A stretch of 64,000 nucleotides of DNA from Tessaracoccus sp. MC1679. Its GTDB lineage: Bacteria; Actinomycetota; Actinomycetes; Propionibacteriales; Propionibacteriaceae. Where the stretch lies: NCBI RefSeq assembly GCF_014164775.1, contig NZ_JACJGB010000004.1:186001-250000 (forward strand), in the 5' to 3' direction. Position numbers and translations under genes: made by a program. A model generated the notes under the pieces. That model had not been told where the DNA came from and did not search any database. It was given only the letters and a program-made list of their open reading frames with translations. Shown here piece by piece: positions 14,351 to 64,000 of this stretch. Within the stretch, counting starts at the first letter, position 1. Each line of letters opens with the position of its first letter.

Positions 14351-14369
14351 ATCGACCTTCAGGAGAATC

Positions 14370-47013: not shown

Positions 47014-47072
47014 TCGTCATCCTCTTCTCTGTTGCGCCCCATTGTGTCAGGGCCAGGGAGGCCAACTGCCGG

Positions 47073-47078
47073 TAGGAT
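47073..47078 (+). promoter_or_regulatory. -10 element of prfB, probably leaderless
   Basis: TAGGAT lies 8 nt before the GTG start of prfB, and no Shine-Dalgarno is present. A transcription start near 47085 would place the start codon at or almost at the 5' end of the mRNA. This form recurs before dgt, dnaG, cobF and the ABM gene. Confidence 0.55.
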
Positions 47079-47086
47079 GATCGATT

Positions 47087-48199: not shown

Positions 48200-48468
48200 G
48201 AGCCTGCTGAGCAATCATGCCTCGGCTGCGGCGCACCGGATCGGGCGATCTGGCACCCCTCCATCTGGATATGGACGTCAAGTACACGCACCAGATGTAG
48301 TGGTGCCACCTCATCCCGCCCGGCACGTCCTCGCCGGAGACAGCATTGTTCAGCACACTCCTAGCGCCAGCCGCCTGCGTGTCGGGTTAGGCCGACTTGT
48401 CCGCGTGATCTAAACTCGCCTTGCGACTGAGAGTTTCTCAGGATCTTCCCCAACCGTCGGAGTGCCGC

Positions 48469-49155: not shown

Positions 49156-49167
49156 GCAGGAGAGACA

Positions 49168-50070
49168 ATGCGGCATTCACTACGGGAAACCTGGTCCGGG
49201 CTCAAGCGCAACCTGGCGATGACCATCGCGGTCATCGTGACAATGGGCGTCTCGCTGTCCCTTCTCGGCGCTGGCGTGTTGACCTCGATGGAGGTGGACC
49301 TGGCCAAGCGGAGCCTCTACGACAAGATCGAGATCTCCGTGTTCCTCTGCACCGAGAACACGCAGGGCGGCCGGTGCGAGCCGGGCAAGGGCACCACAGA
49401 GGCACAGCGGGAGGAGATTCGTGCCACGCTCGAGGCCAACCCTGAGGTCGGCGCTGTGGTCTACGAGTCCAAGGAGGCCGCGTTCGAGGAGTTCCAGGAG
49501 GTCTTCAAGGACTCGCCCGTGGTAGCGTCGCGCACCGCAGAAGACATGCAGGACTCCTTCCGGGTCAGCCTGGTCAACCCGGAGAACTACGCCGGTGTGG
49601 TCAGCGAGGCGCAGGGACTTCAGGGCGTGCAGAACGTACAGGATCTCCACACCGTGCTGGAGCCGATGTTCAAGTGGCTCGGCGCCCTCCAATGGGGAAC
49701 CATCACCATGAGCGTGCTTCTGTTGTTGGCCGCTTCCCTGCAGATCGCCAACACCATCCGGATGGCGGCGTTCACCCGACGGCGCGAGATCGGGATCATG
49801 CGCCTTGTCGGGGCATCCAACCTCTACATCCTGCTGCCTTTTCTCTTGGAGTCGTTGGTGGCAGGAGTGATCGGGATCATCCTGGCTGCCGGAGCGTTGA
49901 CGCTGGGCTACTGGGTGGTCATTGTGCAGAACGCGCAAACCTCAATCACGGCTTTACCCTGGATTGGCTGGGGTGACCTGGTCACTGCCATTCTTGCCAT
50001 CGCGGCTGTGGGAATAGCCTTGTCTGTCATTCCCACGCTGTTGGCCACCAGAAAGTACCTGCGCGTTTAG
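49168..50070 (+). CDS. ftsX: Cell-division membrane protein FtsX
   Basis: This permease-like subunit of FtsEX has four membrane spans. The first is LAMTIAVIVTMGVSLSLLGAGV. A large extracellular loop (about residues 45-165) includes FLCTENTQGGRCEPGKGTTE. Two more spans flank the cytoplasmic loop RMAAFTRRREIGIMRLVGASN, and the last segment is ILAIAAVGIALSVIPTLLATR. The extracellular loop is the part that recruits a peptidoglycan hydrolase activator. The Cys pair in the loop may form a disulfide. ftsE precedes; an M23 peptidase gene follows 21 nt later and is the likely partner. Confidence 0.95.
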   Translation: MRHSLRETWSGLKRNLAMTIAVIVTMGVSLSLLGAGVLTSMEVDLAKRSLYDKIEISVFLCTENTQGGRCEPGKGTTEAQREEIRATLEANPEVGAVVYESKEAAFEEFQEVFKDSPVVASRTAEDMQDSFRVSLVNPENYAGVVSEAQGLQGVQNVQDLHTVLEPMFKWLGALQWGTITMSVLLLLAASLQIANTIRMAAFTRRREIGIMRLVGASNLYILLPFLLESLVAGVIGIILAAGALTLGYWVVIVQNAQTSITALPWIGWGDLVTAILAIAAVGIALSVIPTLLATRKYLRV

Positions 50071-50091
50071 CAGCCCAAAGGAGGGACCAGC

Positions 50092-51534
50092 GTGACCCGG
50101 GAACTTCCCGACCTGCCCCACGTCCGACGCCCATTCACCAGGATCACGCGCGGTTTCGCAGCCGCGGTTCTCGCACTGGCGCTCACCGCATCAATGGCGA
50201 TGCACTCGGCAGCAGACGAGCTCGATGATCGGCAGGCGCAGCTTCGTCAGCAGATGGCCGAGCAGGCCGCTGTGGTGGAGGGCGCCAACGCCCAGCTGGC
50301 CTCGGCGGTCCAGGCCCACGAGGCTGCACGCAATGAGTTGTCCTACGCCGAGGCGCAGCTGGCCGAGGCCGAGGCCGCCGAGCGTGCCGCCGCGGAGCTG
50401 GACCAGCAGCGCGCAGCCGAACTGAGTGAGGCGGAGGCCGAGCTGGCCCAGGCCAAGGCAGATGTGGCGGCCGCCGTGGCCGCTCTGGAAGCGGTCAACG
50501 GCAGGCTGAACGAGGAGATCCTCGTCACGACTCAGACGAGCCACGGCCTCCTCAATCTGGCGATGCTGTTCTCCGACGTCACCGTCGCCAACCTCAACCA
50601 GCGCGCCCAACTCGCTGAGACACTGTTCGATTCGTCGGCTCTTGAGCTGGACGAGCTCGAGATGCGCAGGTTGATGCTTGAGGATGCTCAGGCGGCCGCC
50701 GACGCCGCTGAAAAGGCAGCGCAGGCCGCGCGGGAGGCCGCCGCGGATCAATTGGCGGCAAGCAAGGCCGCGGCCGAGGCCGCAGCCTCACTGCGCGCAC
50801 AGGTGGCACGCCTGGTGGCTCAGACGAGCGCCGCGGAGGACAACGCCACCTCCCAGCTTGCTGCGGAGGAGAGGCGACAGGCGGCGCTCGCCCAGGAGAA
50901 CGCTGCTGTGGAGCAGCGGATCAAGGACCGGATAGCCGCGCAGAAGGCGGCCGCGGAGAAGGCCGACAAGCAGGCCGCCGAGAAGGCTGCGGCGGAGAAG
51001 GCCGCCCGTGAAGCGGCTGCCCGAGAGGCGGCGGCTAAGCAACAGGCAGCGTCGCGCAGTGCGACCAAGACCACGGCACCCGCCCCCGCCGCAGCCCCGG
51101 CACCGGCGCCCGCGAAGACCAGCACCTCCACCGGGTCCGGGTTCATGTTCCCGGTGGCCGCCCGCATCACGTCGAGTTACGGGATGCGGCTGCATCCCGT
51201 GCTCGGATACTGGAAGCTGCACGACGGCACAGACTTCGGCGCCTCGTGCGGCACCCCCATCCGCGCCGCTGCCTCCGGGGTGGTCTCGGAGCGCTACTAC
51301 AACGCCGGCTACGGTAACCGCCTGATGATCGATCACGGGCGGGTGGACGGATACTACGTGACCACCGGGTACAACCACGCGTCGCGCTACATCGTCGGCG
51401 TGGGCCAGCGGGTCTCGCGTGGACAGGTGATCGGCTACATCGGCAGCACCGGATACTCCACCGGTTGCCACCTCCACCTCATGGTCTGGCAGAACGGTTC
51501 GGTGGTCAATCCGATGGCCCGGTGGTTCGGCTGA
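50092..51534 (+). CDS. Coiled-coil M23 (LytM) murein hydrolase or activator of the FtsEX system
   Basis: This secreted protein has a signal sequence ([25 protein letters not shown]) and a long Ala/Glu-rich coiled coil (about residues 45-330). An Ala/Pro linker ([16 protein letters not shown]) and a C-terminal M23 LytM domain follow. Zinc ligands are in [11 protein letters not shown] (HxxxD), and the HLH motif is in [13 protein letters not shown], so the zinc site looks intact. The coiled-coil-plus-LytM plan equals EnvC, which FtsX controls. The gene lies 21 nt after ftsX. It probably cleaves the septum for daughter-cell separation, or activates another hydrolase. Confidence 0.88.
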
Positions 51535-51553
51535 CCCGTGCCATACTGGTCGA

Positions 51554-52036
51554 ATGCCCAGGGAGATCGGGCGCAAGCTGATTGCGCAGAACAAGAAGGC
51601 TCGGCACGATTACCACATCGGTGACGTGTTCGAGGCCGGCCTGGTGCTGACCGGCACCGAGGTCAAGACGCTGCGCGCCGGCCGTGCCACCCTCCTCGAT
51701 GCGTACGCCACCGTCGATGACAACGGCGAGGCCTGGCTGATCAACGCACACATCCCCGAGTACGAATTCGGCACGTGGCGCAACCACTCGGCGCGGCGGA
51801 CCCGCAAACTGTTGCTGCACCGCAAGGAGATCGCCAAGATCTCTCGAGAACTCGACGGGTCCGGGAAGACTCTTGTTCCGCTGTCCATCTACTTCAACGA
51901 CGGGTACGCCAAGGTGGAGATCGCCATCGGCACCGGCAAGAAGGACTGGGACAAGAGGCACACCCTCGCCGAGCGTGACGCCAAGCGTGAGGCCGAGCGG
52001 GCGCTGGCCAGCAGGAACCGGTACAACCGGGGGTGA
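51554..52036 (+). CDS. smpB: SsrA-binding protein SmpB
   Basis: This protein loads tmRNA onto stalled ribosomes for trans-translation. The 160-residue protein has [25 protein letters not shown] and [20 protein letters not shown] at the start. [20 protein letters not shown] and [10 protein letters not shown] follow, and the basic tail [19 protein letters not shown] ends the domain. The tmRNA gene lies 670 nt downstream, with only the DUF1707 gene between. A CATACT motif lies 6 nt before the ATG. Confidence 0.96.
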
Positions 52037-52100
52037 GTCGGGGTCCGGTCAGGGGCCTTCCGGGTGTGCTGAACCCCCACTGGGCACCACACTTGATCCC

Positions 52101-52694
52101 ATGACCGCTTACCCCCAGCACCCCACCACCCACGTCACTGAGGCGGCCCGGGACCGTGCCATCGCCCACCTGCAGGCGTGCTACGCGCAGGGTCAGCTCA
52201 ACGAGACGGATCTCGACCGGCGGCTCGATCAGGCGTTGGGTGCTCGGGACCGGGCGGAGCTCAACCGATCCCTGGCGGGGCTGGCCCGCATCGCGCCTGC
52301 GGCGCTCCGCGCTCCCGCACCTGGAATTCCGGCCCCCGCCGACAACGTCGGTGCCGGGCTTGCGCAACTGTCCGGCCTCTTCACCTCGTTCGTCGGCCCC
52401 GCCGTCGTCAAGGCCGTGGCCACACCGGGCTCGCGGGTGTGGTGGGAGGCGGCGAGGGCACTGAGCCTGCAGGTGACCATGATGGTGGCAGGATTCGCCG
52501 CCCTGGTGATCGGCCTGGTCCTCGGGTTCGAGGGCCTGATGGGCCTGGTGTGGCTGGCCTGGTTCGCCGCCACCCTCGCCGCGAGCGTCCGCGCGTTCAA
52601 CGGGCAGTCCGGCACCGGCCGGTTCGAGAAGGTCCTGTTGGCCCGTCCCCAGCCGCCGCGTGGTCAGCTTCAGCAGACGCGCTATCATGGGTGA
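52101..52694 (+). CDS. DUF1707 SHOCT-like domain membrane protein
   Basis: The N-terminal DUF1707 domain (VTEAARDRAIAHLQACYAQGQLNETDLDRRLDQA in pieces, residues about 12-60) is short and common in actinobacteria; its role is unknown. A linker (LRAPAPGIPAPADNVG) and two membrane spans follow, LQVTMMVAGFAALVIGLVLG and LMGLVWLAWFAATLAASV. It ends with a short basic tail. ATG 52101 begins the domain naturally; the frame is open upstream through the smpB gene. The protein ends 14 nt before the tmRNA gene, so the two sit very close but are unrelated. Confidence 0.8.
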   Translation: MTAYPQHPTTHVTEAARDRAIAHLQACYAQGQLNETDLDRRLDQALGARDRAELNRSLAGLARIAPAALRAPAPGIPAPADNVGAGLAQLSGLFTSFVGPAVVKAVATPGSRVWWEAARALSLQVTMMVAGFAALVIGLVLGFEGLMGLVWLAWFAATLAASVRAFNGQSGTGRFEKVLLARPQPPRGQLQQTRYHG

Positions 52695-52708
52695 GTACAA
52701 CTCAACAG

Positions 52709-53076
52709 GGGGGTGACTGGTTTCGACTTGGGACGGTAGTTCCAGGGGAAGCGGGTCGAGGATCCATGCTTATCTCGTAAACGATGCATGGAAACCAATA
52801 AGTGCCGAAAACAAGAGCACTCACTTCGTTCTCGCTGCCTGATCAGCGACCGAAGGGTCAGCCCGGACGTGCCTTCCGTCCGGTTCCTGGCCTCATCTAG
52901 AAGGCTTGCTGAGCTTCCTGTGTGTCAGGGGTAGCTCGGGACTTTACTGCCACTGGGCTCGTTTGCGACATGCTGACGTGAGTGCAAGAGCCGAGTAAAA
53001 CGCCTTGTCAGCTGCACCCGGAGAAGCCCTGGTTCATCTCTCGAGGACGCGGGTTCAATTCCCGCCACCTCCACCC
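52709..53076 (+). ncRNA. ssrA: Transfer-messenger RNA (one-piece tmRNA)
   Basis: This RNA rescues stalled ribosomes and tags their products for proteolysis. The 5' end GGGGGTGACTGGTTTCGACT and the 3' T-arm CGGGTTCAATTCCCG flank the gene. The acceptor GGGGGTG pairs with CACCTCC (one G-T pair). The resume codon is GCC at 52804, and the tag reads AENKSTHFVLAA followed by TGA at 52840. The discriminator A is followed by CCC rather than CCA, so the terminal A would have to be set by processing. The integrase gene downstream suggests its 3' end is an attachment site. Confidence 0.95.
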
Positions 53077-53079
53077 CCT

Positions 53080-53110
53080 GGGGCCGTCAGTTCGCTGACG
53101 GCCCCTTTTT
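53080..53110 (+). terminator. Rho-independent terminator of ssrA
   Basis: GGGGCCGTCAG pairs perfectly with CTGACGGCCCC around a TTCG tetraloop and is followed by TTTTT. It closes the tmRNA transcript. It lies 4 nt past the tmRNA 3' end, at the presumed left border of the island. Confidence 0.9.
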
Positions 53111-53183
53111 CCTTGTCAGAAGCGTTTCCCGATCCGGCCCTCTTGCAGAAGAGGGCACAAATAGGCACACTTAGGCCCAGAAA

Positions 53184-53199
53184 CGGTACCTAGGTACCG
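53184..53199. promoter_or_regulatory. 16-bp perfect palindrome upstream of the integrase gene
   Basis: CGGTACCTAGGTACCG is its own complement. It lies 30 nt before the integrase ATG. A 7-bp hairpin (CCCTCTT/AAGAGGG, 53138-53155) and two GGCACA repeats lie just upstream. The palindrome is a good candidate operator for a repressor or excisionase; the GGCACA repeats could be integrase arm sites. Confidence 0.5.
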
Positions 53200-53229
53200 C
53201 AGGTTTCGATCGGATTCGGGGATCTCCAC

Positions 53230-54477
53230 ATGCCTGCAGAGCTGCTGCCCAAGGGCGTGTCCACCGTGCATCGGACACGTCGCGGCCGCGACGTGACCCT
53301 GTACCAGGTCCGCGTCACCTGGCAGGGCCGTCGAGAACTGCTGGGCCGGTTCGACACGCTCCGCGACGCGCGGGCCGCCCTCATCATCGCCCAGGCGGAC
53401 ATGCTGCGGGGCGTGTTCGTGCCACCGGCCGCGCTCCGGGCCCAGTTCCGCGAGCAGCAGGGCCTCGTCCGGGAGGCGGCCCAGACCAGCCGCTACACCG
53501 TGGGGGAGCTGGCCGAGGACTACCTCGAGCACGTCCGGCGGCTGGGCCGTAAGGACTCGACGATCTACGACTATCGCCGCCGCGTCGAAACACACGTCCT
53601 GCCCGCCTTCGGCTCGCACCCGATCGACTCGGTCACGCCAGACGAGGTGCAGCGCTGGTTCGACCGCCTCATGTCGGATCACGGCAACGGCGCCGCGCGC
53701 GGCGCCTACATGCAGCTGAGCGGAATGTTCAACTACGCCACAGGCCAGCTCAAGGGACTCCCATCGGGCTTCAAACCCAAGATTGACCGGTCACCGTGCC
53801 AGGTGGTCGGGGGAGCGCGACACAGGCCGGTCAAGCGCGCCGAGGCGTCCGACCAGGTGGTGACCAGAGACCAGATCAGTGCCATCGCGGCCGAGATGCC
53901 GCAAGGGGAGGTGCTGGCCGTCCTGCTGTCTGGATGGATGGCCCTTCGCATCGGCGAGGTCCTGGGGCTCCAGCGGCGCGACGTACGAGGGGAGTGGCTC
54001 GCCGTCTCGAGAGCCCTGCAGAGCCGGGGCAACGGGCTCGTGCTCGACACGCCCAAGACCAAAGCTGGCATTCGCGAGCTTCCACTCGCCCCGGACTCCG
54101 AGCTGAGGGCAGCCCTCCAAGCGCAGCTCGGCGCTCGGGTCGCTGACGCAGCCGACGCACCGCTGTTCCCGAGGGCCGCCCGCGGCATGCATTACCTGCA
54201 CCCGAACGTGCTCCGGAAACACTTCACCAAGGCGATCGAAGCGGCCAACGCCAAGCTGACGGCAGCCGGCCACCCGCCCGTCCCGAACGGATTCGTGTGG
54301 CATGGCCTGCGCCACTCTGCCCTGACGATGATCGCCGGCGCCGGCGCGACCACGGAGGAGCTGCTGACCTTCGGCGGCCACAGCGACGTCCAGGTCGCGC
54401 AGCGCTACCAGCACGCGACCAAGACCAGGCTGCACTCCCTGGTCGAGAAGCTCTCCAGCGAACGGGCACAGGGCTGA
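53230..54477 (+). CDS. int: Tyrosine-type site-specific integrase
   Basis: This recombinase inserts and removes the island by crossing over at an attachment site, here apparently the ssrA 3' end. The N-terminal arm-binding region (HRTRRGRDVTLYQVRVTWQGR) is followed by the SAM-like core-binding domain (TVGELAEDYLEHVRRLGRKD). The catalytic domain from about residue 215 has Arg in ALRIGEVLGLQ, HxxR in WHGLRHSALTMI, His in FGGHSDVQVAQRY and the Tyr in that RY. All catalytic residues are present, so it looks active. Length 415 is typical of phage or ICE integrases. The gene points away from ssrA. Confidence 0.94.
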   Translation: MPAELLPKGVSTVHRTRRGRDVTLYQVRVTWQGRRELLGRFDTLRDARAALIIAQADMLRGVFVPPAALRAQFREQQGLVREAAQTSRYTVGELAEDYLEHVRRLGRKDSTIYDYRRRVETHVLPAFGSHPIDSVTPDEVQRWFDRLMSDHGNGAARGAYMQLSGMFNYATGQLKGLPSGFKPKIDRSPCQVVGGARHRPVKRAEASDQVVTRDQISAIAAEMPQGEVLAVLLSGWMALRIGEVLGLQRRDVRGEWLAVSRALQSRGNGLVLDTPKTKAGIRELPLAPDSELRAALQAQLGARVADAADAPLFPRAARGMHYLHPNVLRKHFTKAIEAANAKLTAAGHPPVPNGFVWHGLRHSALTMIAGAGATTEELLTFGGHSDVQVAQRYQHATKTRLHSLVEKLSSERAQG

Positions 54478-54547
54478 GCAAAGCCGCTCACGCGCAATCG
54501 CCTCCGGGATCGGGTTACTAGAGGACAAGCAACCGAAGGAGTCAGCC

Positions 54548-54769
54548 ATTTCCGTCCACACGAGTCAGCCCGACCCCCAGTGGCTGTCACTGCAGCAGGC
54601 CGCCCACATCTACGGCATCAGCGTCGACACGCTGCGACGCAGCATCTCGTCGGGGGACCTGCCCGCGGCCAGGTATGGCCCCCGACTGATCAGAGTCCGG
54701 GTCAAGGACCTCGACCGCCAGTTCCGCCGGATTCCCGCGGTTGGCCAGTTGTCGCGTCACCACTACTGA
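54548..54769 (+). CDS. xis: Excisionase-like small DNA-binding protein (MerR-type helix-turn-helix), apparent ATT start
   Basis: A 73-codon frame ends at TGA 54767-54769. It contains LSLQQAAHIYGISVDTLRRS followed by ISSGDLPAARYGPRLIRVRV and KDLDRQF, the pattern of MerR-like excisionases. No ATG, GTG or TTG precedes the domain in frame. A GAAGGAG ribosome-binding site (54535-54541) lies 6 nt before an ATT codon, so ATT, as in infC, is the most likely start (M-SVHTSQPDPQW). It lies 70 nt after the integrase, the usual place for an excisionase, and would direct excision. Start-based gene finders would miss it. A frameshift or loss of a start is the alternative. Confidence 0.72.
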   Translation: MSVHTSQPDPQWLSLQQAAHIYGISVDTLRRSISSGDLPAARYGPRLIRVRVKDLDRQFRRIPAVGQLSRHHY

Positions 54770-54848
54770 CAGGGGCATCTGTAGAGCCAGGCACCTGGTC
54801 CCGAGTGCACTGGTGAGAGTGGACGGCTCCATTTTCTCAACAGGTAGG

Positions 54849-54883
54849 CTAATGAGAATCGCGAGCTATGATTCTCTCATTAG
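54849..54883. promoter_or_regulatory. Inverted repeat immediately before the fic gene, probable operator
   Basis: CTAATGAGAATC (54849-54860) matches the complement of GATTCTCTCATTAG (54870-54883) apart from a 2-nt bulge, with a 9-nt spacer. The right half overlaps the AGGAGG ribosome-binding site of the fic gene. This lets a bound protein block transcription or translation; the C-terminal winged helix of the Fic protein itself is a candidate binder. Confidence 0.6.
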
Positions 54884-54898
54884 GAGGACGCGGAGCGT

Positions 54899-56083
54899 AT
54901 GGAGAACGGGGAAGCCTGGCCGGGCGTCGGATACATCGAGGCGACGTGGCACGCCGATGATCCGGCTGCCAGCAGGCGCCAGCGGGCCTTGAACCGGGGC
55001 GCCTTCCGGTTCGCGGTTCCCGCGGTCGTCGGCGACCTGGAACCGCGGGTGGATCCCGGGCTGGCCGACGAGGCGGACCAGGTCTGTGCAGACATCCGGG
55101 CGTTCGACGCCGAATCGGCCTCGTGGGGTGTCCCGTTCGCGTCGGTCCTGTTGCGCACGGAGTCCGCCTCGAGTTCGCAGATTGAGAATCTGACGGCCGG
55201 GGCCCGGGCGATCGCCCTGGCGTCCCTGGGTGGCAGGACCGGCGCGAACGCGGTGATGATCGCGGCCAACACCGACGCGATGCGAGCAGCCGTCGAGCTG
55301 GCCGACAGGATCAGCCCGAACACGATCAGGGCCATGCACGAGCGCCTCAATGGCGGGGACGACCCGGCCAATGCCGGCAGGTTCCGTGACCAAAGCGTGT
55401 GGGTCGGCGGCCGGTCTCCGGTGACCGCCACGTTCGTGGCGCCCCCGCATGCCCAGGTGGAGTCGGCGATCGACGATCTGTGTTCGTTCGCGCGGCGTAC
55501 CGACCTGCAGCCCATGGTGCAGGCCGCGATCGCGCACGCCCAGTTCGAGACCATCCATCCGTTCACCGATGGCAACGGGCGAACCGGTCGGGCTCTCGTA
55601 TCGTCGATCCTTCGGCACCGTGGGGTGTCTCCGCGAATGACAGTGCCGATCTCGTCGGGCCTCCTGGCGGACACGGAGGAGTACTTCGCGGCGCTGACCG
55701 CATACCGGGGCGGAGACCTTGCACCGATCGTCGAGGCATTCGTCGAGGCCGGCCGCCGGGCCATCGCGAATGCCAACATCCTGCGTTCCGACATCAACGA
55801 TCTCCGCGACCGCATTCTCGCCACGGCTGACCGGCGGACCGCGAACCTGGTGAAGGTCGCGGACCTGTGTTCGGCCGAGCCGGCGCTCACCGCCGAGATG
55901 GTGGCCGACCTCGGTGTACCGGTGGCCAGCGTTTACCGGATCCTCGACCGCATGGCGGAGAACGGGGTCATATGTGTCGAGAAGCCGATCGGTGGCGTCA
56001 GGGTCTGGACCGTCCCTGACCTGCTTTCGGCGCTTGACCGGTTCGCCGAACGGGCAGGACGGCGAACGTTCAGCAGTGGCTGA
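54899..56083 (+). CDS. Fic-domain protein (predicted AMP transferase) with N-terminal inhibitory motif and C-terminal winged helix
   Basis: Fic enzymes transfer AMP, or another nucleotide part, to target proteins. The active-site loop is IHPFTDGNGRTGRALV (HPFxDGNGRxxR, His at about residue 220). An N-terminal SSSQIENL (about residues 90-97) fits the (S/T)xxxE(G/N) inhibitory helix of class II Fic proteins, which hold themselves inactive. The C-terminus (LVKVADLCSAEPALTAEMVADLGVPVASVYRIL in pieces) is a winged helix. The 394 residues equal the common Fic/DUF4172-like family size. It is the first cargo gene of the island. No separate antitoxin gene is visible, consistent with the built-in inhibitor. 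It may regulate a host target or act in defence. Confidence 0.88.
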   Translation: MENGEAWPGVGYIEATWHADDPAASRRQRALNRGAFRFAVPAVVGDLEPRVDPGLADEADQVCADIRAFDAESASWGVPFASVLLRTESASSSQIENLTAGARAIALASLGGRTGANAVMIAANTDAMRAAVELADRISPNTIRAMHERLNGGDDPANAGRFRDQSVWVGGRSPVTATFVAPPHAQVESAIDDLCSFARRTDLQPMVQAAIAHAQFETIHPFTDGNGRTGRALVSSILRHRGVSPRMTVPISSGLLADTEEYFAALTAYRGGDLAPIVEAFVEAGRRAIANANILRSDINDLRDRILATADRRTANLVKVADLCSAEPALTAEMVADLGVPVASVYRILDRMAENGVICVEKPIGGVRVWTVPDLLSALDRFAERAGRRTFSSG

Positions 56084-56086
56084 CCT

Positions 56087-56110
56087 GTTCAAATCCTGTC
56101 AGCCCGACAA
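56087..56110. repeat. tRNA-Pro-like 3' end fragment, candidate att scar
   Basis: GTTCAAATCCTGTCA followed by GCCCGACAA closely resembles the T-arm and acceptor end of actinobacterial proline tRNAs (GTTCAAATCCTG, then CCCGACCA). No tRNA body precedes it; the fic stop codon lies 4 nt upstream. tRNA-Pro is a known integration site of actinobacterial elements such as pSAM2, so this may be a leftover attachment site. The match is short, with about two mismatches judged from memory. Confidence 0.45.
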
Positions 56111-56157
56111 GGTCTTTGACTAGTCAGGACCGCATTCGGAGGGCGCAAATCGGGTCG

Positions 56158-56178
56158 CGTGCCAGATACGTGCCAGAT
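56158..56178 (+). repeat. 10-bp tandem direct repeat, possible integrase arm sites
   Basis: CGTGCCAGAT occurs twice, separated by one A, so the period is 11 bp, about one helical turn. Such spacing is typical of arm-type binding sites for tyrosine integrases or excisionases. It follows the tRNA-Pro-like fragment by 48 nt. Confidence 0.5.
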
Positions 56179-56511
56179 CCGATTCCGGCGCCCACCCTGA
56201 AGCGGCCGTAAGTAGGCATAGCTAGCCACCCCCACGAGTAGCGCAGGAGCCGACAGGAACTCGTTAGGGACTGCGACTCAACATGGGCAACGAGCTGCCC
56301 GAGCCCCGTGGGGATTGGCTGTGACGACTCCCCAAGCTCCAGCCTCACTTCTTCCAGACCTGATCTTGTTCACATCGTCCGAGCTGAGGAGTCCCGGCTC
56401 GGCGATCGTCGCCTCGAGCGACTGCTGCAGGCTCCTGCCAGCAGGATCCGTATCCTCGCCTGCCCAGGAAGCGACTTGTGCGAAACGGTGAGAAGGCGGC
56501 GTCCCGCGTCT

Positions 56512-56617
56512 GGTCGAGTCCAGTCCGGAGAGCCAGCACGAAAGCCGCTTTGACTAGGTAAAACACCAGTCGGAGCGGCTTCTTCATTGCAACCTGGGCA
56601 AGTATCGGGCAACTGTG
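56512..56617 (+). pseudogene. Degenerate copy of the tRNA-Asn 3' half, its terminator and flank
   Basis: The segment TCGAGTCCAGTCCGG then AGAGCCA matches the T-arm and acceptor end of tRNA-Asn at 17892-17915. CGAAAGCCGCTTTGACTAGG and CCAGTCGGAGCGGCTTCTTC then match that gene's terminator. Even the following ATCGGGCAAC parallels ATCCGGGCAAC near 17981. The 5' half of the tRNA is missing and the stem has several mismatches. This is a classical signature of an attachment site, or a scar left by an element that used tRNA-Asn. Confidence 0.7.
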
Positions 56618-57005
56618 AAAGGGCCCTCTACAGGTGAGCGCGTACGCCGAGCACTACTTCCATATGAACCACGAGGGTCCGCCGTCGACACGCCGTCACC
56701 TGCAACGCCAACCCCCGACGACCATGGCTGGCAACTCCCCACTCGGGTGGCTTCCGGCGCATAGGACGCGGGGCTGCTAGGTGCCAGCGCAGGGTCCGAA
56801 CTGCCTCCCGGCAGACCGTCGAGATCTCGGCTGTGACACCTGCGAACGATTTCGGGGTACCCAGTGTCGGTGTCGGTGGTTGTGCATCAGCTGGCCCGCC
56901 CACGGGGCCGCTGGTCGGTTTCCCCGCCGAGTCTCCTATCAGTGGTCCCGGCAGCCTCGATTCTGGCCCTGGGGCGTGACCTCACGGTCATGCCGAGTTC
57001 AGGAC

Positions 57006-57314
57006 GTGTGCAACGACGGCCGGGTGGTCGCTATGGAAATATCCACCGACGGGGTCTTCGGCGCCCGCAAACCTTCGGGACATGGCGCGATCCACACCCA
57101 AGGCTCTGCGGCTCCTGTCGACTATCTGACCGACGTTGTACTTAGGGAGGTCGACGCCCTATTCGAGGACGACAACATCAATCTGGAGCCGCCGCAGCAT
57201 GAACCGAACGATCCCAGCGTACGGCGCGAGAGGTGGCTCTTTGATGTCAGGCTGCCGGATCTGCGCCGTGTCAGGCTCCGAGGGGCGCCTGACAGCTCGG
57301 GGTTTCGGCTCTGA
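57006..57314 (+). CDS. Small hypothetical protein, possibly a remnant
   Basis: A 102-codon frame from GTG 57006 (or 93 from ATG 57033) reads EISTDGVFGARKPSGHGAIH, DYLTDVVLREVDALFEDDN and ends RLRGAPDSSGFRL. The acidic/hydrophobic pattern of the middle part is plausible for a folded protein, but no domain is recognised. The open frame runs back to 56781, where the sequence looks non-coding. It may be the tail of a larger, decayed gene. Confidence 0.3.
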   Translation: MCNDGRVVAMEISTDGVFGARKPSGHGAIHTQGSAAPVDYLTDVVLREVDALFEDDNINLEPPQHEPNDPSVRRERWLFDVRLPDLRRVRLRGAPDSSGFRL

Positions 57315-57766
57315 GTGTGTCTCGTTACCATTGCGTCACTTGAGCGGATCGCTCTGCGGATGAGTCCATGGACGCCGAGCCTCGTGTCTAGACCACCTCA
57401 CCCTGTCGGGGCCCGGTGACTTTCGACTCCCGACATCGCCCGCGGCCGCGTGTCCTGACCAGACTTGGCGCCCGACAAGGGCATGGGCGGTGTTGATCCT
57501 CTTGAGGCTGGCCGGTGTGACCTTGTCCAATGCAGCGTCGTCCCGTCGGCGCGACGCCACCGGAACCCATCGCCTGCACCTGGGGCGGCACCGCGTCGAG
57601 GTCGGGGAACCCTCACTACCGTCGCCAGCGTCAACATCGGGTATCTCCTTTATCAGGAGATGCACCGAAAGCCGTGCAGTCCCCCGCTCCCGCTCCCGCG
57701 TTTGTTGACAGTGGAGGCGGCTAGGATGCGGAGAAGTGCTCGGCTTGCCAGTGGAGGTCTGTCGCT
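57315..57766. other. Gene-poor stretch before the large defence-like gene
   Basis: About 450 nt without a supported gene. A TTGACA at 57705 has no -10 at a normal distance (TAGGAT starts after only 11 nt). A GGAGG ribosome-binding site near 57752 serves the next gene. Antisense frames here show no recognisable protein. Confidence 0.6.
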
Positions 57767-60700
57767 GTGGCAGTAGGTCCAGTAGACCCACCGACGCGCG
57801 ATCAGCGCGGGGTTGGAGGCGCGCGGACTGGACAACAGCGCACGCGAAGAACGACTAAGCCCACTGTTCGGCGACAGACGCCAGTTTCGGAGTCGGAAGC
57901 TTACTCAGCCTCCCGCGCCGGCGCTCGGGCGAGCCGCGGATTCGGCTATCAGCATGCGGTCGGAGCGTGGGTGTGTTCCAAAGTCGCCGTCGGAGAGATT
58001 GCCGCAACCGAAGTAATACCTGAGGGTCTTGAGGACACACAAGTCACGGGGGCCGAGCCCATCTTTATCCAGGCAAAGTCACGCCAGGCATCACAGGGGG
58101 ACTTCACGGTTCGCCAAGTGCTCGGCTTCCTAAGTACGATGATAGAAACGCGGATGGCTCAGCCTCGCGACCCCTTGTCGGAACGACTCGTGCTGGTGCT
58201 GGAACGACCGATCGATGGCGCGCAGTCGGTCCGGTGGGAGCAGTCGCTAGCAGATCTCACGCCTACAAATCGCATTCGCCTGGGCGCGGAGGGGCTCCTC
58301 GGGCCGCTAGCAGACGGGCATATGAGCGTGACGTCCTTGCTGAAGCAAACCGCGATCGTCGTGCTTCCGTGGGGCCAGATTGATAGCGAGACGCTAGCCC
58401 GACTAGCCTCGGCGAGTGGACTGATGTCCGGTGCTGCGGAACCGCTCCTGCACACTCTGCGACAAGCGGTGTCCCATTGCACCTCGAATAACGCCTCGCG
58501 GAGTTTTGCGGAACGGCAGGCGCTCAATCGGCAGTCGATTCAGCTCCTGATCACCAGGACGACGCTGCTGATCGACCAGGGCGCTCTGACATCCGCCGTG
58601 TCAAGTGGCGGATGCGTCCCGGTCGACTTCGACACGTCGATTGAAGATCCGCGATTCTTCGAGGGCATCGACGTACGTCCTGGCCATGTCGTCGCTGGGC
58701 TTCCCGCGCCGCGGATAGAACTTGTGGAGTTCGCATCGGATGCACTCAGGCGGCAGCACGTCGTCCTCCTGACTGGTCCCTCGGGAGTGGGCAAATCCAC
58801 AGTGATGTGGAGCACGGCATATGCGATGCGGGACGTAATCTGGTACGAAGTGACGCGCCTTGAGTGCAGCGATGTGGAAGCCGTGTTGCGCCTGCTCGTC
58901 TCGCTGGGCCCGAAGCCGTCCTCCCCCGTCGGCCTGGTCGTGGACTCTGTGGGCACTAAGGACCCTGCAGCCTGGGATGCCTTGTGCGATCGGCTTCCCG
59001 CCGATGGCTCGGTGCTGATGATTGGCTCCGTTCGCACGGAGGACCTGTCCCTGATTGCAGGTGCGCGTAGCTCGGCTGTTGTCGAGTGCCGTATGGACGA
59101 GCTTGTCGCTCGGGAGCTATTCGAAGCGCTGAGAGAGCAAGGGCGAACTTCCCTGCATGCATGGGAGGATGCCTACGAGGCAAGCGGCAACCTAACGATG
59201 GAGTACACCTACCTCCTCACTCAGGGCCAGAGGCTCTCGGCTGTCCTGGGCGAGCAAGTCCGGCGCAGGGAAGGCGGAAACCGATCGATCGAATTGGAGG
59301 TGCTTCGGCTCGTCACCACCGCGGCACGATGGGGGGCCCGTGTCCCGGCACATGCTCTGGCGGCAATCGCGCCCGACGCCGCCCCACGCCGGGCGGCATT
59401 GAGGCGATTGATCGGTGAACACCTGATCACTCATGACGGAGCGCACTATGGCGGCCTGCATCAACTCCGGGCGAGCGTGCTCTCGTCGGCAGTGCACGAG
59501 ACTCCGCCACCGTCTCTTGAAGCCACGGCGGCGGATCTTGTGCGGGTCGTCGATCCGACGGACCTTCGTACATTCGTGCTTGAGTGCCTTCTCGAGCAGC
59601 CTGGCGCCGCCTCTACTGTGATCGGAGCCCTTCGTGAACGGGTGCAGACAGACCCAGATTTCGCGCTTCTGACCATCGCGCTTCGCACCCTTCGAGCCGC
59701 CGACTTTCGCCGGGACGGCACGTCTTGGGCAAACATCCTTGATGCACACGTGGTTGCCCAGGCCTATCGACCCGTCACAGTATGGCTAGCCCTCACGGAT
59801 TCGGACACTGAGGTACCAGAGCACCTATGGAAACCGGGCATCGCCGCCTCGATTCGCGAGATGAAGGCTGCACCGCAGCAGCCTAGGTGGCGGGACGAGT
59901 TCATTGCCGGCGTGGGAGCGGAGACTCTGCTTGCTTTCGCTGACGCTGCGCCCACGTTGACTGAGATCGAAGCCCTAGTGGCAGCACTTCAGGGCGCATC
60001 CGCAGCACCCGAGCTCGCCCGCGCGATTTCCCAACTGCCGACTGTGGTGAGCTTCGTTGCCGACGCAGCGCCCGAGGCGGCCAGCAAATTCATGGGTCTG
60101 CTCGGGACGATCGACCCGCGCGCGGCCCAGAGCATGCGCGAGACTCTGGGGTCGGATCAGTGGGCAAGATCCATCCTGCTCTCGCTCAATCCCTGGATCG
60201 TGCAGACGGAGAGACACTACTCGGATGACGGCGATCTTGAGTTATCCGCCGCCCTGCTACACGGCGGCGACTGGTTTGGAGTCGACCCGCACGAGCAAGC
60301 AGTCCAAGCCGCTCGAACCCTGCTGAACCTGTATCCCGAGTGCACAGTAAACGTGCGGACCATCAACGCGACTGGGGATCTCCTGACGCAAGAGAACCAT
60401 GAGCCGGGGCGGAGCCAACTGCTCCGCAGATACAACCAGCATCCCCGCGAGATCAGCTGGAACCGCGAGCGTGCGCGCTTGGCTCTGCAACTCGCCTTGC
60501 GGCGATCTGACGTCGAGAGGGCTCAGGCGGTCACCAGACTCGTCCCGGAGGTCGATCGCTTCCTGTCTGAGCTGACCTCGGCCTGGGCCCGCAAAGCTGT
60601 GAACCGCGCCTCGATCCGGGATTTCGCAGAGACTCAGAAACGCATCATCGAAGCAAACGACGCGCTGCCTGCGCACGCTTCCCCTGACATCGCGGAACCC

Positions 60701-61819
60701 GTCTATGACGAGCCCTCGAAGAGCGACCCGAACGTCTTCGATAACGACGACTTCCACGCCCTAGTGGACGGGATCTGCTCGAACATAGCGACCCGGCTAC
60801 TGGAAGGGGAGGACTACAACGCCTTGGCGGCCTACGTGGGCGACACCATTCTCAAGCTGGTTACAAAGGCCCGGTCAGCGGAGAACTGGCAAGATAGTTC
60901 TGACGTGGATCCACAGGTAGCCTTGGAAAACATTGAACGCACACTGCACCACCTCCATGCTGTGCTCGCCGACATCGCATTTGGGCACGAGCCGAAGGAC
61001 ATAGTTCTCGGGGTCGCCTCACTGGGTGGTCGTACCTCCGCCCTATCCAGATGTGCAGAGAGGTCGATTAAACGGGCCACTGATCGGCTGCGCGAGCATC
61101 TGGACCAGGTCGCCTCTGAGGCAGCCACATTGGGTCTGAGCGTTCGTTGGGTCCATCGAGACACGGCCGCCCCGTCCGCAGTCGACTGGCCTCCGATCGA
61201 GGTCGCGCTAATCGTCGATGTCCAAGTAGTCGATGATTGGGGAGCGGCGGCGTCCACTATGCACGCGTTGCTCGCCACCAAAGGCAGCACGATCGATTTG
61301 GGACATCCGATACTGGTCCCTGCAGTTCATGGTTTCGTCGTACCTGCCTTGGGGATCCAGTCCTGGTCTTGCCTCTATCCAGCGGCGCATGCTGCTTTGG
61401 CGTGGGGGACTGGCCTAGGGATACTCATCGGTACTCCGACTGCTGACGCCCTTCAGCGACTATGGAGTGTCCTCCAGGCGATGTCCACCCTCACTCTGCG
61501 AGCGCGTCTGCGAGAGATGCCGCACACTTTCGAGGACCTGCCACCCGAACTCGCCGCCCAATTGGCGCACGAGGTGGGACTAGTGGGCGCCGCACTCACT
61601 GGTTCGTCGCTGGGGCAGGATTGGGAGGTCTGGAGAGCTGAGACAGTCGACATTGTATTGTCCGAGACGAGACAGCCGACTAATTCAGTGCGAGACGTGT
61701 GGGTGGCCAGGGCAACTTCGAGTGCCGATTCGGTGTCTTTGCCACGGGCACAGTTTCAGCTGCTCTGGGAAGCAGTGCTCACGTATGACTTGGAGCACTG
61801 CCCGAACGCCGTTGTTTAG
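57767..61819 (+). CDS. Candidate antiviral defence protein: nuclease-like N-terminus, P-loop (STAND-type) NTPase, long C-terminal sensor-like region
   Basis: This 1350-residue protein is not a known housekeeping gene. Residues about 50-145 resemble the Cap4/DUF4297 double-strand DNA nuclease domain: GFGYQHAVGAWVC, PEGLEDTQV (Asp90) and IFIQAKSRQ (Gln102, Lys104) give a D...QxK pattern. Walker A is LLTGPSGVGKSTVMW (residues 337-345) and a possible Walker B is VGLVVDSVG (Asp393). The remaining 900 residues are mostly helical, without named motifs. That three-part order equals nuclease-armed Avs/STAND proteins, where phage protein binding switches on the nuclease. GTG start with GGAGG 9 nt upstream. 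It sits in an island behind an integrase, with a lower apparent GC content. A restriction-like or other NTPase role cannot be excluded. Confidence 0.72.
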   Translation: MAVGPVDPPTRDQRGVGGARTGQQRTRRTTKPTVRRQTPVSESEAYSASRAGARASRGFGYQHAVGAWVCSKVAVGEIAATEVIPEGLEDTQVTGAEPIFIQAKSRQASQGDFTVRQVLGFLSTMIETRMAQPRDPLSERLVLVLERPIDGAQSVRWEQSLADLTPTNRIRLGAEGLLGPLADGHMSVTSLLKQTAIVVLPWGQIDSETLARLASASGLMSGAAEPLLHTLRQAVSHCTSNNASRSFAERQALNRQSIQLLITRTTLLIDQGALTSAVSSGGCVPVDFDTSIEDPRFFEGIDVRPGHVVAGLPAPRIELVEFASDALRRQHVVLLTGPSGVGKSTVMWSTAYAMRDVIWYEVTRLECSDVEAVLRLLVSLGPKPSSPVGLVVDSVGTKDPAAWDALCDRLPADGSVLMIGSVRTEDLSLIAGARSSAVVECRMDELVARELFEALREQGRTSLHAWEDAYEASGNLTMEYTYLLTQGQRLSAVLGEQVRRREGGNRSIELEVLRLVTTAARWGARVPAHALAAIAPDAAPRRAALRRLIGEHLITHDGAHYGGLHQLRASVLSSAVHETPPPSLEATAADLVRVVDPTDLRTFVLECLLEQPGAASTVIGALRERVQTDPDFALLTIALRTLRAADFRRDGTSWANILDAHVVAQAYRPVTVWLALTDSDTEVPEHLWKPGIAASIREMKAAPQQPRWRDEFIAGVGAETLLAFADAAPTLTEIEALVAALQGASAAPELARAISQLPTVVSFVADAAPEAASKFMGLLGTIDPRAAQSMRETLGSDQWARSILLSLNPWIVQTERHYSDDGDLELSAALLHGGDWFGVDPHEQAVQAARTLLNLYPECTVNVRTINATGDLLTQENHEPGRSQLLRRYNQHPREISWNRERARLALQLALRRSDVERAQAVTRLVPEVDRFLSELTSAWARKAVNRASIRDFAETQKRIIEANDALPAHASPDIAEPVYDEPSKSDPNVFDNDDFHALVDGICSNIATRLLEGEDYNALAAYVGDTILKLVTKARSAENWQDSSDVDPQVALENIERTLHHLHAVLADIAFGHEPKDIVLGVASLGGRTSALSRCAERSIKRATDRLREHLDQVASEAATLGLSVRWVHRDTAAPSAVDWPPIEVALIVDVQVVDDWGAAASTMHALLATKGSTIDLGHPILVPAVHGFVVPALGIQSWSCLYPAAHAALAWGTGLGILIGTPTADALQRLWSVLQAMSTLTLRARLREMPHTFEDLPPELAAQLAHEVGLVGAALTGSSLGQDWEVWRAETVDIVLSETRQPTNSVRDVWVARATSSADSVSLPRAQFQLLWEAVLTYDLEHCPNAVV

Positions 61820-62367
61820 TCGCCTGGACCGCCGCTTGACGGTTGAAGCCGCCCGCGGGCGGTGTTGAATCCGGTGATGAACTCACCTCTTGTGTTCCCC
61901 AGAGGGAACGCGATGCCGCTGTCGTGGAGGAGCGTGAGCCCCGCGGCTCGAATAGGGTCTTTCAGAAGAGGGTACAAGTCTTTCTTGACCACGATGACCC
62001 CGTCGGGGTTGAGCTCAGACGCGCGCTGCACGCAGTCGTTTACATACTCTGCGCGCCTCCTGCGCAGGTGTGCCTGACTGGCGTTCACAGGATGGGGCAC
62101 CAGGTCGATCATGTAGAAGCCGTCGTCGCGAAGGCGTTCGAGCCACGGACGCTTTCCTCGCTTTGCTAGGTCGTCTCTGGTGGCCCCGTAAAATGCCTCC
62201 ACCACTCCGCGAAAGAGATTGTCGTGGCCGAGCCGCTCAGAGTAGAAGAATCGCCTGTTGCTCGGGTCGCCGCCATCGTCAGGGGCGGACTCGGCGATGA
62301 GCAGGAGCCGCACATGGCTCGGTTTCCATGCTTCACGAAGCTGCGAGTACCACGGGTTCTCGGTCAC
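61816..62367 (-). CDS. Hypothetical protein resembling the uracil-DNA-glycosylase fold
   Basis: The 183-residue protein has HVRLLLIAESAPDDGG near the N-terminus. This is like the first motif of the UDG superfamily (strand then GxxPG-type loop; here ESAPDDG). DDGFYMIDLVPHPVNAS and GVIVVKKDLYPLL follow, and the end is GFNTARGRLQPSS. The fold assignment is tentative and the catalytic residues of true UDGs are not all recognisable, so it may bind a nucleotide instead. The start is a GTG with TAGCGT 6 nt upstream, suggesting a leaderless message. It converges on the large STAND gene with a 4-nt overlap, so its promoter is separate. Function unknown. Confidence 0.6.
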   Translation of the reverse strand: MTENPWYSQLREAWKPSHVRLLLIAESAPDDGGDPSNRRFFYSERLGHDNLFRGVVEAFYGATRDDLAKRGKRPWLERLRDDGFYMIDLVPHPVNASQAHLRRRRAEYVNDCVQRASELNPDGVIVVKKDLYPLLKDPIRAAGLTLLHDSGIAFPLGNTRGEFITGFNTARGRLQPSSGGPGD

Positions 62368-62527
62368 AGACTCACGCTACCCCCGGGTCAGGCCGTCGGG
62401 GAGGTCTTCACTCGCACCGGCTCATGCCGCGACCTGGGTACTTTGCCGCCGTCATCCTGGAGCCCTCGAGGGGCCCTCATGAACCCGTTCAGACAGGGGG
62501 TGAAGCGTCCGAGATTCATGCCGCTGC

Positions 62528-63499
62528 TTATCTGGGCTGGCCCTCGGTGAGGGGGGCCGTGTAGTGGGCGTGCTCGAACTCTACCGGGGTGGTGTAGCCG
62601 AGGCGGGAGTGGAGGCGACGGTGGTTGTACCAGTCGACCCAGCCAGCGGTCGCGTACTCGACGTCGGTGACCGTCTTGTAGGGGCCGGGATGGAAGATCG
62701 TGGTACGGATGCACTCGGCCTTGTAGAGACCGTTGATGGATTCCATCAAGGCGTTGTCGTAGGCGTCCCCGACGCTGCCGATCGAGGGCTGGATCTGCTC
62801 CAGAGCCAGGCGTTCGGTGTAGCGCAGCGAGGTGTACTGCGACCCGGCATCCGAGTGCGCCCGCAACGATCCGGGCTGGATCGGGCGGCCATCTCGGTCT
62901 CGCTGCCACACGGCCATCCGCAGCGGGCTGAGGACCAGGTCGGTGTGCATGCTGCCAGCGGCGTGCCAGGCGACGATGCGTTGCGAGAACACATCGACGA
63001 TGAACGCGACGTAGCAGAACCCCGCCCACGTCCGGACGTAGGTGAAGTCCATCACCCACGTGTGATCCGGCCGCGGGGCGGTGAAGTCCCGGTCCAGCAG
63101 GTCACCTGCCCGGTTTGCGCCCTTGCCGGGGATAGTGGTGCGGATCCCCTTGTCGCGCCGCACCCCGGAGAGCCCGAGAGCGGTCATGGCCCGGTCCACG
63201 CTGCCGGCCGAGGCGTCACCGAAGGCAGGCTGGCGACGCACCAGGGCGGTCATCTTCCGACGCCCGTAGAGGCCCTCTGGGGTCATCTGACGCTGCGCCT
63301 GCCTGGTGGTGGTCCACGCCAGGTCACGGACCTTGTCGGCCACGTGCGCATCGCTGAGGGTGCGGGCAGCCACACCACCTCGTTTCCAGGAGCGGTAGGT
63401 CCTCGCGGCGATCTGACAGCCCTGCTCACGCAGGACACGGCAGATCGACTCGACCGCGAACCCCTCGGACTTCATCTGGTCGATGAAACCGGCCATCAA
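62528..63499 (-). CDS. IS3-family transposase, OrfB (DDE catalytic part)
   Basis: This 323-residue integrase-core protein provides the catalytic domain. An N-terminal HTH_21-like region (RQMTPEGLYGRRKMTAL) precedes the core. The DDE residues are Asp in WVMDFTYVRTWAGFCYVAFI, Asp in HSDAGSQYTSLRYT and Glu in DNALMESINGLYKAE. WYNHRRLHSRLGYTTPVEFE marks the C-terminus. All three acids are present. ATG 63499 overlaps the OrfA stop by 4 nt (ATGA). A GCGGGGG/CCCCCGC hairpin just before it may help frameshifting or re-initiation. Confidence 0.94.
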   Translation of the reverse strand: MMAGFIDQMKSEGFAVESICRVLREQGCQIAARTYRSWKRGGVAARTLSDAHVADKVRDLAWTTTRQAQRQMTPEGLYGRRKMTALVRRQPAFGDASAGSVDRAMTALGLSGVRRDKGIRTTIPGKGANRAGDLLDRDFTAPRPDHTWVMDFTYVRTWAGFCYVAFIVDVFSQRIVAWHAAGSMHTDLVLSPLRMAVWQRDRDGRPIQPGSLRAHSDAGSQYTSLRYTERLALEQIQPSIGSVGDAYDNALMESINGLYKAECIRTTIFHPGPYKTVTDVEYATAGWVDWYNHRRLHSRLGYTTPVEFEHAHYTAPLTEGQPR

Positions 63500-63807
63500 C
63501 GGTTGCGGGGGTCGAGTTCCCCCGCGAAGAAAGTCGTTGCCGCTCGCAGGATCGCGACGTCTTCTCGGAGGCGTCGGTTCTCGGCCTTCAACCGCTTCAC
63601 CTCGGCCTGCTCCTCGGTGGTGATCCCGTCGCGTTCGCCGGTATCGACCTGGGCCTGGATCACCCAGCGACGCACGGATTCCTTCCCAACCCCCAGCTGC
63701 TTCGCCACGGCCGCTGCCGCGGCCGTCAGCGACGGATACTCGGACACGTGCTCGGTCACCAGACGCACAGCTCGTGCTTTCAGCTCCGGATCGATCATCT
63801 TGGGCAT
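63496..63807 (-). CDS. IS3-family transposase, OrfA (HTH protein)
   Basis: This 103-residue protein binds the IS ends. MIDPELKARAVRLVTEHVSEYP starts an HTH_Tnp_1 domain, VGKESVRRWVIQAQVD is its recognition part, and EEQAEVKRLKAENRRLREDVA is the leucine-zipper coiled coil. ATG 63807 is chosen because AAGGAG lies about 10 nt upstream; ATG 63816 in the same frame is too close to that site. Full transposase would be an OrfAB fusion. Confidence 0.9.
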   Translation of the reverse strand: MPKMIDPELKARAVRLVTEHVSEYPSLTAAAAAVAKQLGVGKESVRRWVIQAQVDTGERDGITTEEQAEVKRLKAENRRLREDVAILRAATTFFAGELDPRNR

Positions 63808-63872
63808 GGTGCTCATTCTCCTTGACTCAAACAGGAGCGGCATCAAACCTGGGGCGCTTCAACACCAACACG

Positions 63873-63965
63873 GGGAGATCAGCTGACCGCAGACAGGGAG
63901 ATGAGCTGTCCGCCTACAAGGAGATCCCATGACCGCCCACAGGGACTTCCCCGTGTCCCTTGACA
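63873..63965 (+). repeat. Four tandem 23-bp imperfect repeats
   Basis: Units start at 63873, 63896, 63919 and 63942. The first three share GGAGAT, then TGNCCGC and end ACA; the fourth is more diverged (GGGACTTCC). Exact 23-bp spacing suggests protein-binding sites, such as the transposase sites at the end of an IS21-like element. They adjoin the right end of the IS3 element. Not a CRISPR array, since there are no spacers. Confidence 0.6.
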
Positions 63966-64000
63966 CGAGCTCACCCCTCCCCAGAACGGAACCAGCCCGG
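63929..64000 (+). CDS. Possible start of a gene cut by the window edge
   Basis: An ATG preceded by AAGGAGATCCC opens a frame that remains open for the last 24 codons (MTAHRDFPVSLDTSSPL at the start). It begins within the third 23-bp repeat. It is too short to identify; a transposase gene of a neighbouring element would fit the setting. The frame may be chance. Confidence 0.25.
   Translation, partial: MTAHRDFPVSLDTSSPLPRTEPAR

Follow-up and report, generated by a model that had tools for sequence, protein, structure and literature searches.

A 1350-aa protein encoded on the plus strand at 57767..61819 of a 64,000-nucleotide stretch of the Tessaracoccus sp. MC1679 genome (positions 186,001 to 250,000 of contig NZ_JACJGB010000004.1, assembly GCF_014164775.1; the whole stretch is hereafter called the window) joins a predicted Cap4/DUF4297-like nuclease to a STAND-type NTPase and a long C-terminal region in one chain, and is probably a single-gene, Avs-like STAND defence protein acting against phages or plasmids, a reading to which we assign a probability of about 0.72. 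Sequence comparison places this nuclease-STAND protein in a family whose members are large and rarely found. The observations behind this reading are the domain order, the conserved active-site and P-loop residues, the pattern of conservation along the chain and a genetic context of mobile and defence genes.

Gene and domain architecture

The reading frame is uninterrupted over its 1350 codons and opens with the GTG at 57767, the sole start codon in the open frame upstream of the first conserved block, with a Shine-Dalgarno-like GGAGG (57753..57757, + strand) placed 9 nt 5′ of it. An alternative start at residue 40 was dropped, codon 57884 being GTT and GTG 57767 the only start codon listed. 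Conservation was counted over an alignment (A2) of 14 members, comprising the window protein and its relatives from a Kiloniellaceae metagenome-assembled genome (L011), six genomes of the window's order (L027-L032), Agrobacterium (L003), Sphingopyxis (L004), Caulobacter (L005), Marinovum (L006), Ruegeria (L007) and Arthrobacter (L008), of which the Marinovum and Ruegeria members are closely related to one another. A2 replaced an earlier alignment, A1, which began at residue 40 and was used for the searches of the window's order and class (293 and 394 genomes) and for some contig scans. The Sphingopyxis homologue (L004 8950-10848) stops early, just 5′ of an IS21 element, with its nuclease and STAND parts retained.

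The initial annotation had described one long gene carrying the motifs PEGLEDTQV, IFIQAKSRQ and GPSGVGKST. All three are present in the translated protein, and P85, E86, G87, D90, Q102 and K104 of the nuclease region and P338, S339, G340, G342, K343 and S344 of the P-loop are invariant in all 14 aligned sequences, so that the motifs are not there by chance.

Residues ~50-145 (57914..58201, + strand) match Cap4/DUF4297 nucleases and are supported by alignment and profile matches as a predicted nuclease, in keeping with the signature first reported for this region. The active-site signature of an aspartate followed by QxK (D90, Q102, K104) is found in every member, and a profile of the N-terminal regions of the 14 sequences (A6), searched against 177,635 PDB sequences, retrieved LmuA (9ux7) at E = 4.2e-6 and, weakly, AbpA (8zue) at E = 0.03, each of which serves in phage defence. 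Pfam Cap4_nuclease (PF14130) matched three of the 14 members, with a best E-value of 4.7e-6; against its curated cut-off of 26.2 bits the Sphingopyxis protein lies above at 30.0, the Marinovum protein just below at 24.0 and the Caulobacter protein at 13.8, and four other member N-termini examined gave no match. Two LmuA models of PADLOC matched 7/14 and 5/14 members at E ≤ 1 (best 2.6e-5), the value for the window protein being 0.0035.

Residues ~286-575 (58622..59491, + strand) look like a STAND NTPase with a winged-helix H/R motif, the winged helix being assigned by its sequence motif. The STAND plan proposed earlier held across the family, in that nSTAND_NTPase5 matched 13 and nSTAND3 12 of the 14 members at E ≤ 1. 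Walker A spans residues 337-344, and K343, D393, R423, H565 and R568 are invariant throughout; from general knowledge of STAND and NLR proteins we take D393 to be the Walker B aspartate, R423 a sensor-1-like arginine and H565 an MHD-like histidine of the winged-helix-like H565/R568 motif. AlphaFold models, built from two sequences (those of the window and L011), were both poor, the P-loop core being the best-modelled part with block predicted local distance difference test (pLDDT) values of 61-87. Comparison of this core by VIA-align placed EfAvs5 in the top row (Z 12.8, root-mean-square deviation 3.6, 143 residues), tied with many AAA+ rows, for which reason the row was not used as evidence of kinship to Avs.

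The remaining residues, 576-1350 (59492..61816, + strand), form a poorly conserved C-terminal region that we propose as the sensor. The unrecognised part of the protein had been put at about 900 residues; a long unrecognised C-terminus is indeed present, at a length of ~775 residues, since the P-loop leads into the STAND and winged-helix region, which extends the recognised part to ~575. A profile of this region found nothing credible in the PDB, the best hit being to a designed coiled coil at E = 0.1, and Pfam gave weak matches to the window C-terminus (TMP_N 0.28, DnaG_DnaB_bind 0.91). The absence of a TPR-like motif, also reported initially, holds at the sequence level, with no Pfam TPR match in the window protein nor among the 25 of 37 families listed for the 14 members. 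Among the 12 full-length members mean pairwise identity is 0.415 in the STAND region and 0.359 in the nuclease, against 0.207-0.242 in five C-terminal segments, and the window protein and its nearest relative (L032) share 0.161-0.324 in the C-terminal segments against 0.441 in the STAND region. The low-confidence C-terminal model consists largely of helices, with 16 short ones placed within residues ~557-807 and mixed alpha/beta structure and further helices beyond them, and Foldseek returned weak, suggestive matches to helical-repeat proteins. This region may be a divergent helical solenoid.

Comparison with known defence systems

The protein has the plan of the Avs (AVAST) proteins, one chain that runs from an N-terminal effector through a central STAND NTPase to a long C-terminal region, so that the Avs-type assignment made initially stands as to domain order; kinship in sequence was not found. 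No Avs model of PADLOC-DB 2.0.0 matched, either with the window protein at E ≤ 10 or with the 14 members at E ≤ 1, and the Avs2 models, the one Avs type seen to be in this set, do work, giving 968 bits for a neighbour of the Caulobacter homologue. Other PADLOC models gave partial nuclease, P-loop or other weak matches to the family (LmuA, HamA, mad, PDC-M54A etc.). By hhalign, in which a single Avs2 sequence (that of L005) was the only Avs compared, the probability was 5.6 for A2 and 0.1 for the C-terminal alignment (A5), and of the 34 PDB sequences that the family profile reached at E ≤ 10 none was an Avs chain. Because of these three results we call the family separate from Avs by sequence, and Avs-like in plan.

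Avs3 (AVAST type 3) has the order Cap4-STAND-TPR and is similar in bearing an N-terminal Cap4-type nuclease, a central STAND module and a long C-terminal region in one large protein, whilst the family described here has neither a recognised TPR sensor nor a match to an Avs chain or PADLOC Avs model. Over the N-terminal G-x-GFxYQ ... PE..ED ... QxK stretch the family can be aligned with LmuA (Lamassu) and AbpA (AbpAB), nucleases that act with separate partner proteins, whereas here the nuclease is fused to a STAND NTPase. DUF4297-HerA likewise places a DUF4297 nuclease under the control of a P-loop NTPase, and the accessible text of its description reports dsDNA (double-stranded DNA) cleavage and abortive infection (PMC11291478); there the ATPase is a separate HerA hexamer, in contrast to the fused STAND module. 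Avs5 (SIR2-STAND) shares the effector-STAND plan with a sensing region, as set out in the accessible part of PMC12931631, and differs in its Sir2 effector, where the present family bears a nuclease signature, with no Avs5 sequence match in the PADLOC or PDB searches.

Distribution of the family

With the single protein as query, two of 147 genomes of the window's taxonomic family matched at E ≤ 0.001, its own included, as did 11 of 72,556 plasmid records at 1e-5, eight of them predicted conjugative or mobilizable; of these 11 records, four are from Agrobacterium and carry the same protein without a difference. One of 50,697 phage records matched, weakly and over residues 297-508; repeated scans of viral contigs, one of which gave 600 pattern-matching stretches, confirmed no relative. 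The same query found no relative in a genome-contig collection, in which the alignment recovered at least one (L011).

A1 gave a long match in 7/293 genomes of the window's order, its own included; 44 of the 51 genomes reached at E ≤ 0.001 were not counted, their matches being short, confined to the P-loop region and under 30 bits. In the window's class A1 found its own genome as the one match among 394 at 1e-20. An alignment of the nuclease-STAND part, searched at 1e-15, returned the identical seven among 391 genomes of the order and two of 396 in the phylum, again with the window's own. The alignment-search counts are lower bounds, because scoring was limited, as far as the output reports it, to the first two or three candidates of each genome; the searches also overlap in the genomes they cover.

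More distant proteins of the same plan occur in Pseudanabaena (L009, hhalign probability 99.65), in Hymenobacter (L010, 99.80) and in a genome of the window's phylum (G742, 7.8e-41). The hhalign alignment to the Hymenobacter protein ends at column 648 of 1324 and that to the Pseudanabaena protein at column 926, and the effector-switch part is therefore common across phyla, the remaining C-terminus not detectably so. In G742 only model positions 196-549 matched; an effector swap is not claimed there, as the protein has by eye a LEGIEDIDC...IQLKYS signature of its own. The family did not come up in searches of the open-access literature, supplements aside, nor in the accessible parts of PMC7159879, PMC12839542, PMC13092281, PMC10952713 and PMC12724215, from which we do not conclude that it is unpublished.

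Defence genes near the homologues

The expectation that homologues would lie among defence genes was borne out in part: a named defence system is found nearby at four of the 14 loci, the window included, and a candidate or STAND-type neighbour at five more, with no defence gene accepted at the others among the neighbours scanned or in the annotation. At L027 BrxA (8.6e-82) and BrxC adjoin the homologue, with BrxB nearby, in a type 1-like BREX set. GajB (3.4e-242) and GajA (6.1e-114, a piece spanning profile positions 376-619 only) adjoin the homologue at L011, and a plasmid-borne Avs2 (2.7e-291) lies near that of L005. The candidate system PDC-S28 is represented near the homologues of L028 and L029 by DEAD helicases (L028 1031-3574 and L029 5442-8042, 38% identical), the sole plausible defence neighbour shared between loci. 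The next gene at L030 matches NACHT at 7.2e-7, above the cut-off, and PDC-M54A at 9.4e-10. At L006 a gene at 12824-17200 (1458 aa) overlaps the homologue by 14 nt and matches NCAB2 (3e-29), PDC-M68A (1.5e-23) and, below the cut-off, NACHT (0.0034); the N-terminus of its product is endonuclease-effector-like. L003 carries a SMEK_N protein (3.2e-42; NACHT 0.002, below the cut-off) whose NTPase part matches Avs2 models. Matches of mad3/mad8 to an ABC-type protein at L031, and of PD-T4-6 to a kinase and of RmrA (0.0047) at L032, were all discounted.

Comparison of the 636 neighbouring open reading frames (ORFs) of ≥100 aa at 16 loci (the A2 loci, L009 and L010, with 47001-64000 taken for the window) gave five cross-locus pairs at 1e-8, among which the helicase of L028 and L029 is the one plausible defence gene. 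There being no fixed partner gene, the protein most likely works alone, as a one-gene system. A Fic-STAND pair, suggested by an Agrobacterium pAt integrase, RHE_PE00001 (DUF1612) and the homologue standing in a row, was rejected because the SoFic protein of the window and the RHE_PE00001 protein were unmatched at 1e-8 and because, as far as ORFs of ≥100 aa go, such a gene is common to no other two loci.

The mobile element at ssrA

The gene lies on an element inserted at ssrA, the transfer-messenger RNA gene (52709..53076, + strand; ARAGORN, which ends it at 53075, and Rfam RF00023, 169 bits). The integrase-marked island with a Fic protein and transposase recognised in the initial annotation is real, and larger than the window shows. 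By k-mer comparison a 52-bp exact direct repeat covers the 3′ end of ssrA together with the terminator-like hairpin that follows, as an attL-like copy (53058..53109), with a second copy beyond the window at 299305-299356 of contig C12, and the two bound an element of 60.2 kb that extends past the window. No other exact direct repeat reaches 30 nt in the 132.6 kb that were compared, and in the 19 kb directly beyond the window no 12-mer is shared. A 24-mer att search (≤3 mismatches) returned the copy at ssrA and, on contig C9, one further site with 3 mismatches, having missed the second copy because the repeat begins inside the pattern.

Within the element, a tyrosine integrase (53230..54477, + strand; Pfam Phage_integrase 6.1e-10, Phage_int_SAM_3 2.7e-11) is followed by a Fic protein of the SoFic type (54899..56083, + strand; Pfam Fic 1.1e-19, PADLOC SoFic 1.1e-58). 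A gap of 1.7 kb (window 56084-57766) separates SoFic from the nuclease-STAND gene, and the one ORF examined in it (56781-57311) had no Pfam match at E ≤ 0.1. A 183-aa ORF (61816-62367, − strand) converges on the nuclease-STAND gene and overlaps its stop by 4 nt; searches of Pfam, PADLOC and NCBIfam at E ≤ 10 returned nothing for it, and we take the LLIAESAP near its start to be reminiscent of uracil-DNA-glycosylase-like proteins. Further on lies a two-ORF transposase (62528..63846, − strand; rve and HTH_Tnp_1 proteins by Pfam), presumably of the IS3 type.

Elsewhere the element encodes a 1896-aa TrwC relaxase-helicase (L033 5320-11010, − strand; TrwC 1.2e-85), with DNAG_N and Toprim toward its C-terminus, and a 1202-aa ORF (L033 11774-15382, + strand) with no match in Pfam (E ≤ 0.1) or PADLOC (E ≤ 0.001). 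BrxHI, BrxD, PglZ, BrxC/PglY, PglX and PglW are encoded at L059 2567-15982 and L060 1443-5684 (contig C12 ~271.6-290.7 kb, beyond the window), PglX being 1186 aa when read across two adjoining stretches, and we read this set, which falls within the 60.2-kb element, as type 2 BREX.

ssrA was found in 30 of 31 genomes of the genus, and 20 loci were obtained, one of them that of the own genome. At no fewer than 13 of the 19 others (L048 has just 70 bases beyond ssrA) a relative of the AlgH-like gene of L038 lies within 1.5 kb 3′ of ssrA; in the own genome it is at C12 317916, 79 kb past ssrA. The stretch that separates the second repeat from the AlgH-like gene (L058, C12 299357-317915; 18.6 kb) may be a second insertion. 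A related integrase stands at ssrA in L043 (74% over 343 aa), and that of L050 matches the one of L043 (57% over 265 aa), so ssrA is a recurrent integration site.

Proposed function and alternatives

The mechanism that we infer for a defence protein of this plan, its DNA target and its role in defence included, is as follows. At rest the STAND and winged-helix domains, with ADP bound, would hold the protein inactive. The C-terminal region (576-1350) would bind a component of the invader, be it a phage or a mobile element, and binding would open the STAND module to ATP binding and oligomerisation. The N-terminal Cap4/DUF4297 nuclease domains would thereby be brought together to cut dsDNA, which would stop the invader and possibly kill the cell. 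Switching of a nuclease of this family by assembly would have its precedent in DUF4297-HerA and in the Cap4 domain of SeAvs3: according to the accessible text of PMC11291478, DUF4297-HerA is a dsDNA nuclease whose defence is abolished by mutation of the nuclease or ATPase site, and the authors liken it to the SeAvs3 Cap4 domain, an active endonuclease.

Several results weigh against a defence role or against parts of the domain assignment. The window protein itself had no Cap4_nuclease match in the Pfam scan and falls under the curated cut-offs for the STAND families (nSTAND_NTPase5 25.6 against 34, nSTAND3 25.0 against 27.2). Structure prediction served for the P-loop core and left the nuclease and the C-terminus unfolded, at mean pLDDT values of 48 and 44, and the predicted PD-(D/E)XK nuclease fold is without support from the model because AlphaFold was too poor in residues 50-145. 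The window protein has S as the residue after D393, where 10/14 members have D or E and the remaining three have G, N and N, and this may mean weaker ATP hydrolysis. Low identity also occurs outside the C-terminus, at 0.240 in the N-terminal extension and 0.258 in the linker (146-285), so that it is not peculiar to the proposed sensor. No defence gene was accepted among the two neighbours scanned at L031 and the six at L032, and by annotation the loci L007, L008 and L004 have HipA, AbiE toxin-antitoxin, conjugation and IS21 genes and no recognised defence gene; AbiE is of the abortive-infection type and was not counted as a defence neighbour. The neighbours were moreover picked by hand, without a matched control of random loci.

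The strongest competitor, which we nevertheless consider rather improbable, is a module by which the mobile element would exclude others or stabilise itself, in which the STAND part would sense competing plasmids or integrative elements and the nuclease destroy their DNA; the mechanism would be the same as for the defence protein, with a trigger other than phages. The carriage of the gene with an integrase and a TrwC relaxase, the conjugation genes adjoining the L008 homologue and the prediction of eight of the 11 plasmid records as conjugative or mobilizable (four of the 11 being the Agrobacterium records with one protein) would all suit such a module. Antiphage systems ride similar elements, however, the type 2 BREX here being one case and the plasmid-borne Avs2 of L005 another. 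A regulator of housekeeping or of the stress response, with no part in defence, would account for the several loci at which no recognised defence gene was seen nearby, yet the rarity of the family (7/391 genomes of the order), its presence on plasmids and an integrative element and the retention of the nuclease signature in 14/14 members make this very unlikely.

Nested within our preferred reading, so that the probabilities we attach to these readings do not sum to one, is the possibility that the protein is one more type of Avs, narrowly defined, whose C-terminus would be an unrecognisable TPR-type sensor of terminase or portal. The Avs3-like domain order, the 16 short helices of the low-confidence model and the weak Foldseek matches point that way, whilst the failure of every PADLOC Avs HMM (hidden Markov model), the hhalign probabilities for one Avs2, the absence of an Avs chain from the PDB matches and the readiness with which helical models match each other argue against it, and we regard it as doubtful. 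We hold to be equally doubtful the more far-reaching suggestion that the ~775-residue C-terminus is a sensor class new for STAND proteins, triggered by something other than terminase, portal or JADA, and that the protein is a second line of defence firing once the co-carried BREX (type 2 here, brxABC beside L027) has been breached.

STAND sensors are one bacterial way of recognising phage proteins, and few of their triggers are known. A rare family with a nuclease-STAND plan and an unrecognised C-terminus, found on mobile elements and across several phyla, would offer a route to new patterns under immune surveillance, and the probable defence protein of Tessaracoccus would add to the picture of integrative elements bearing layered defences.

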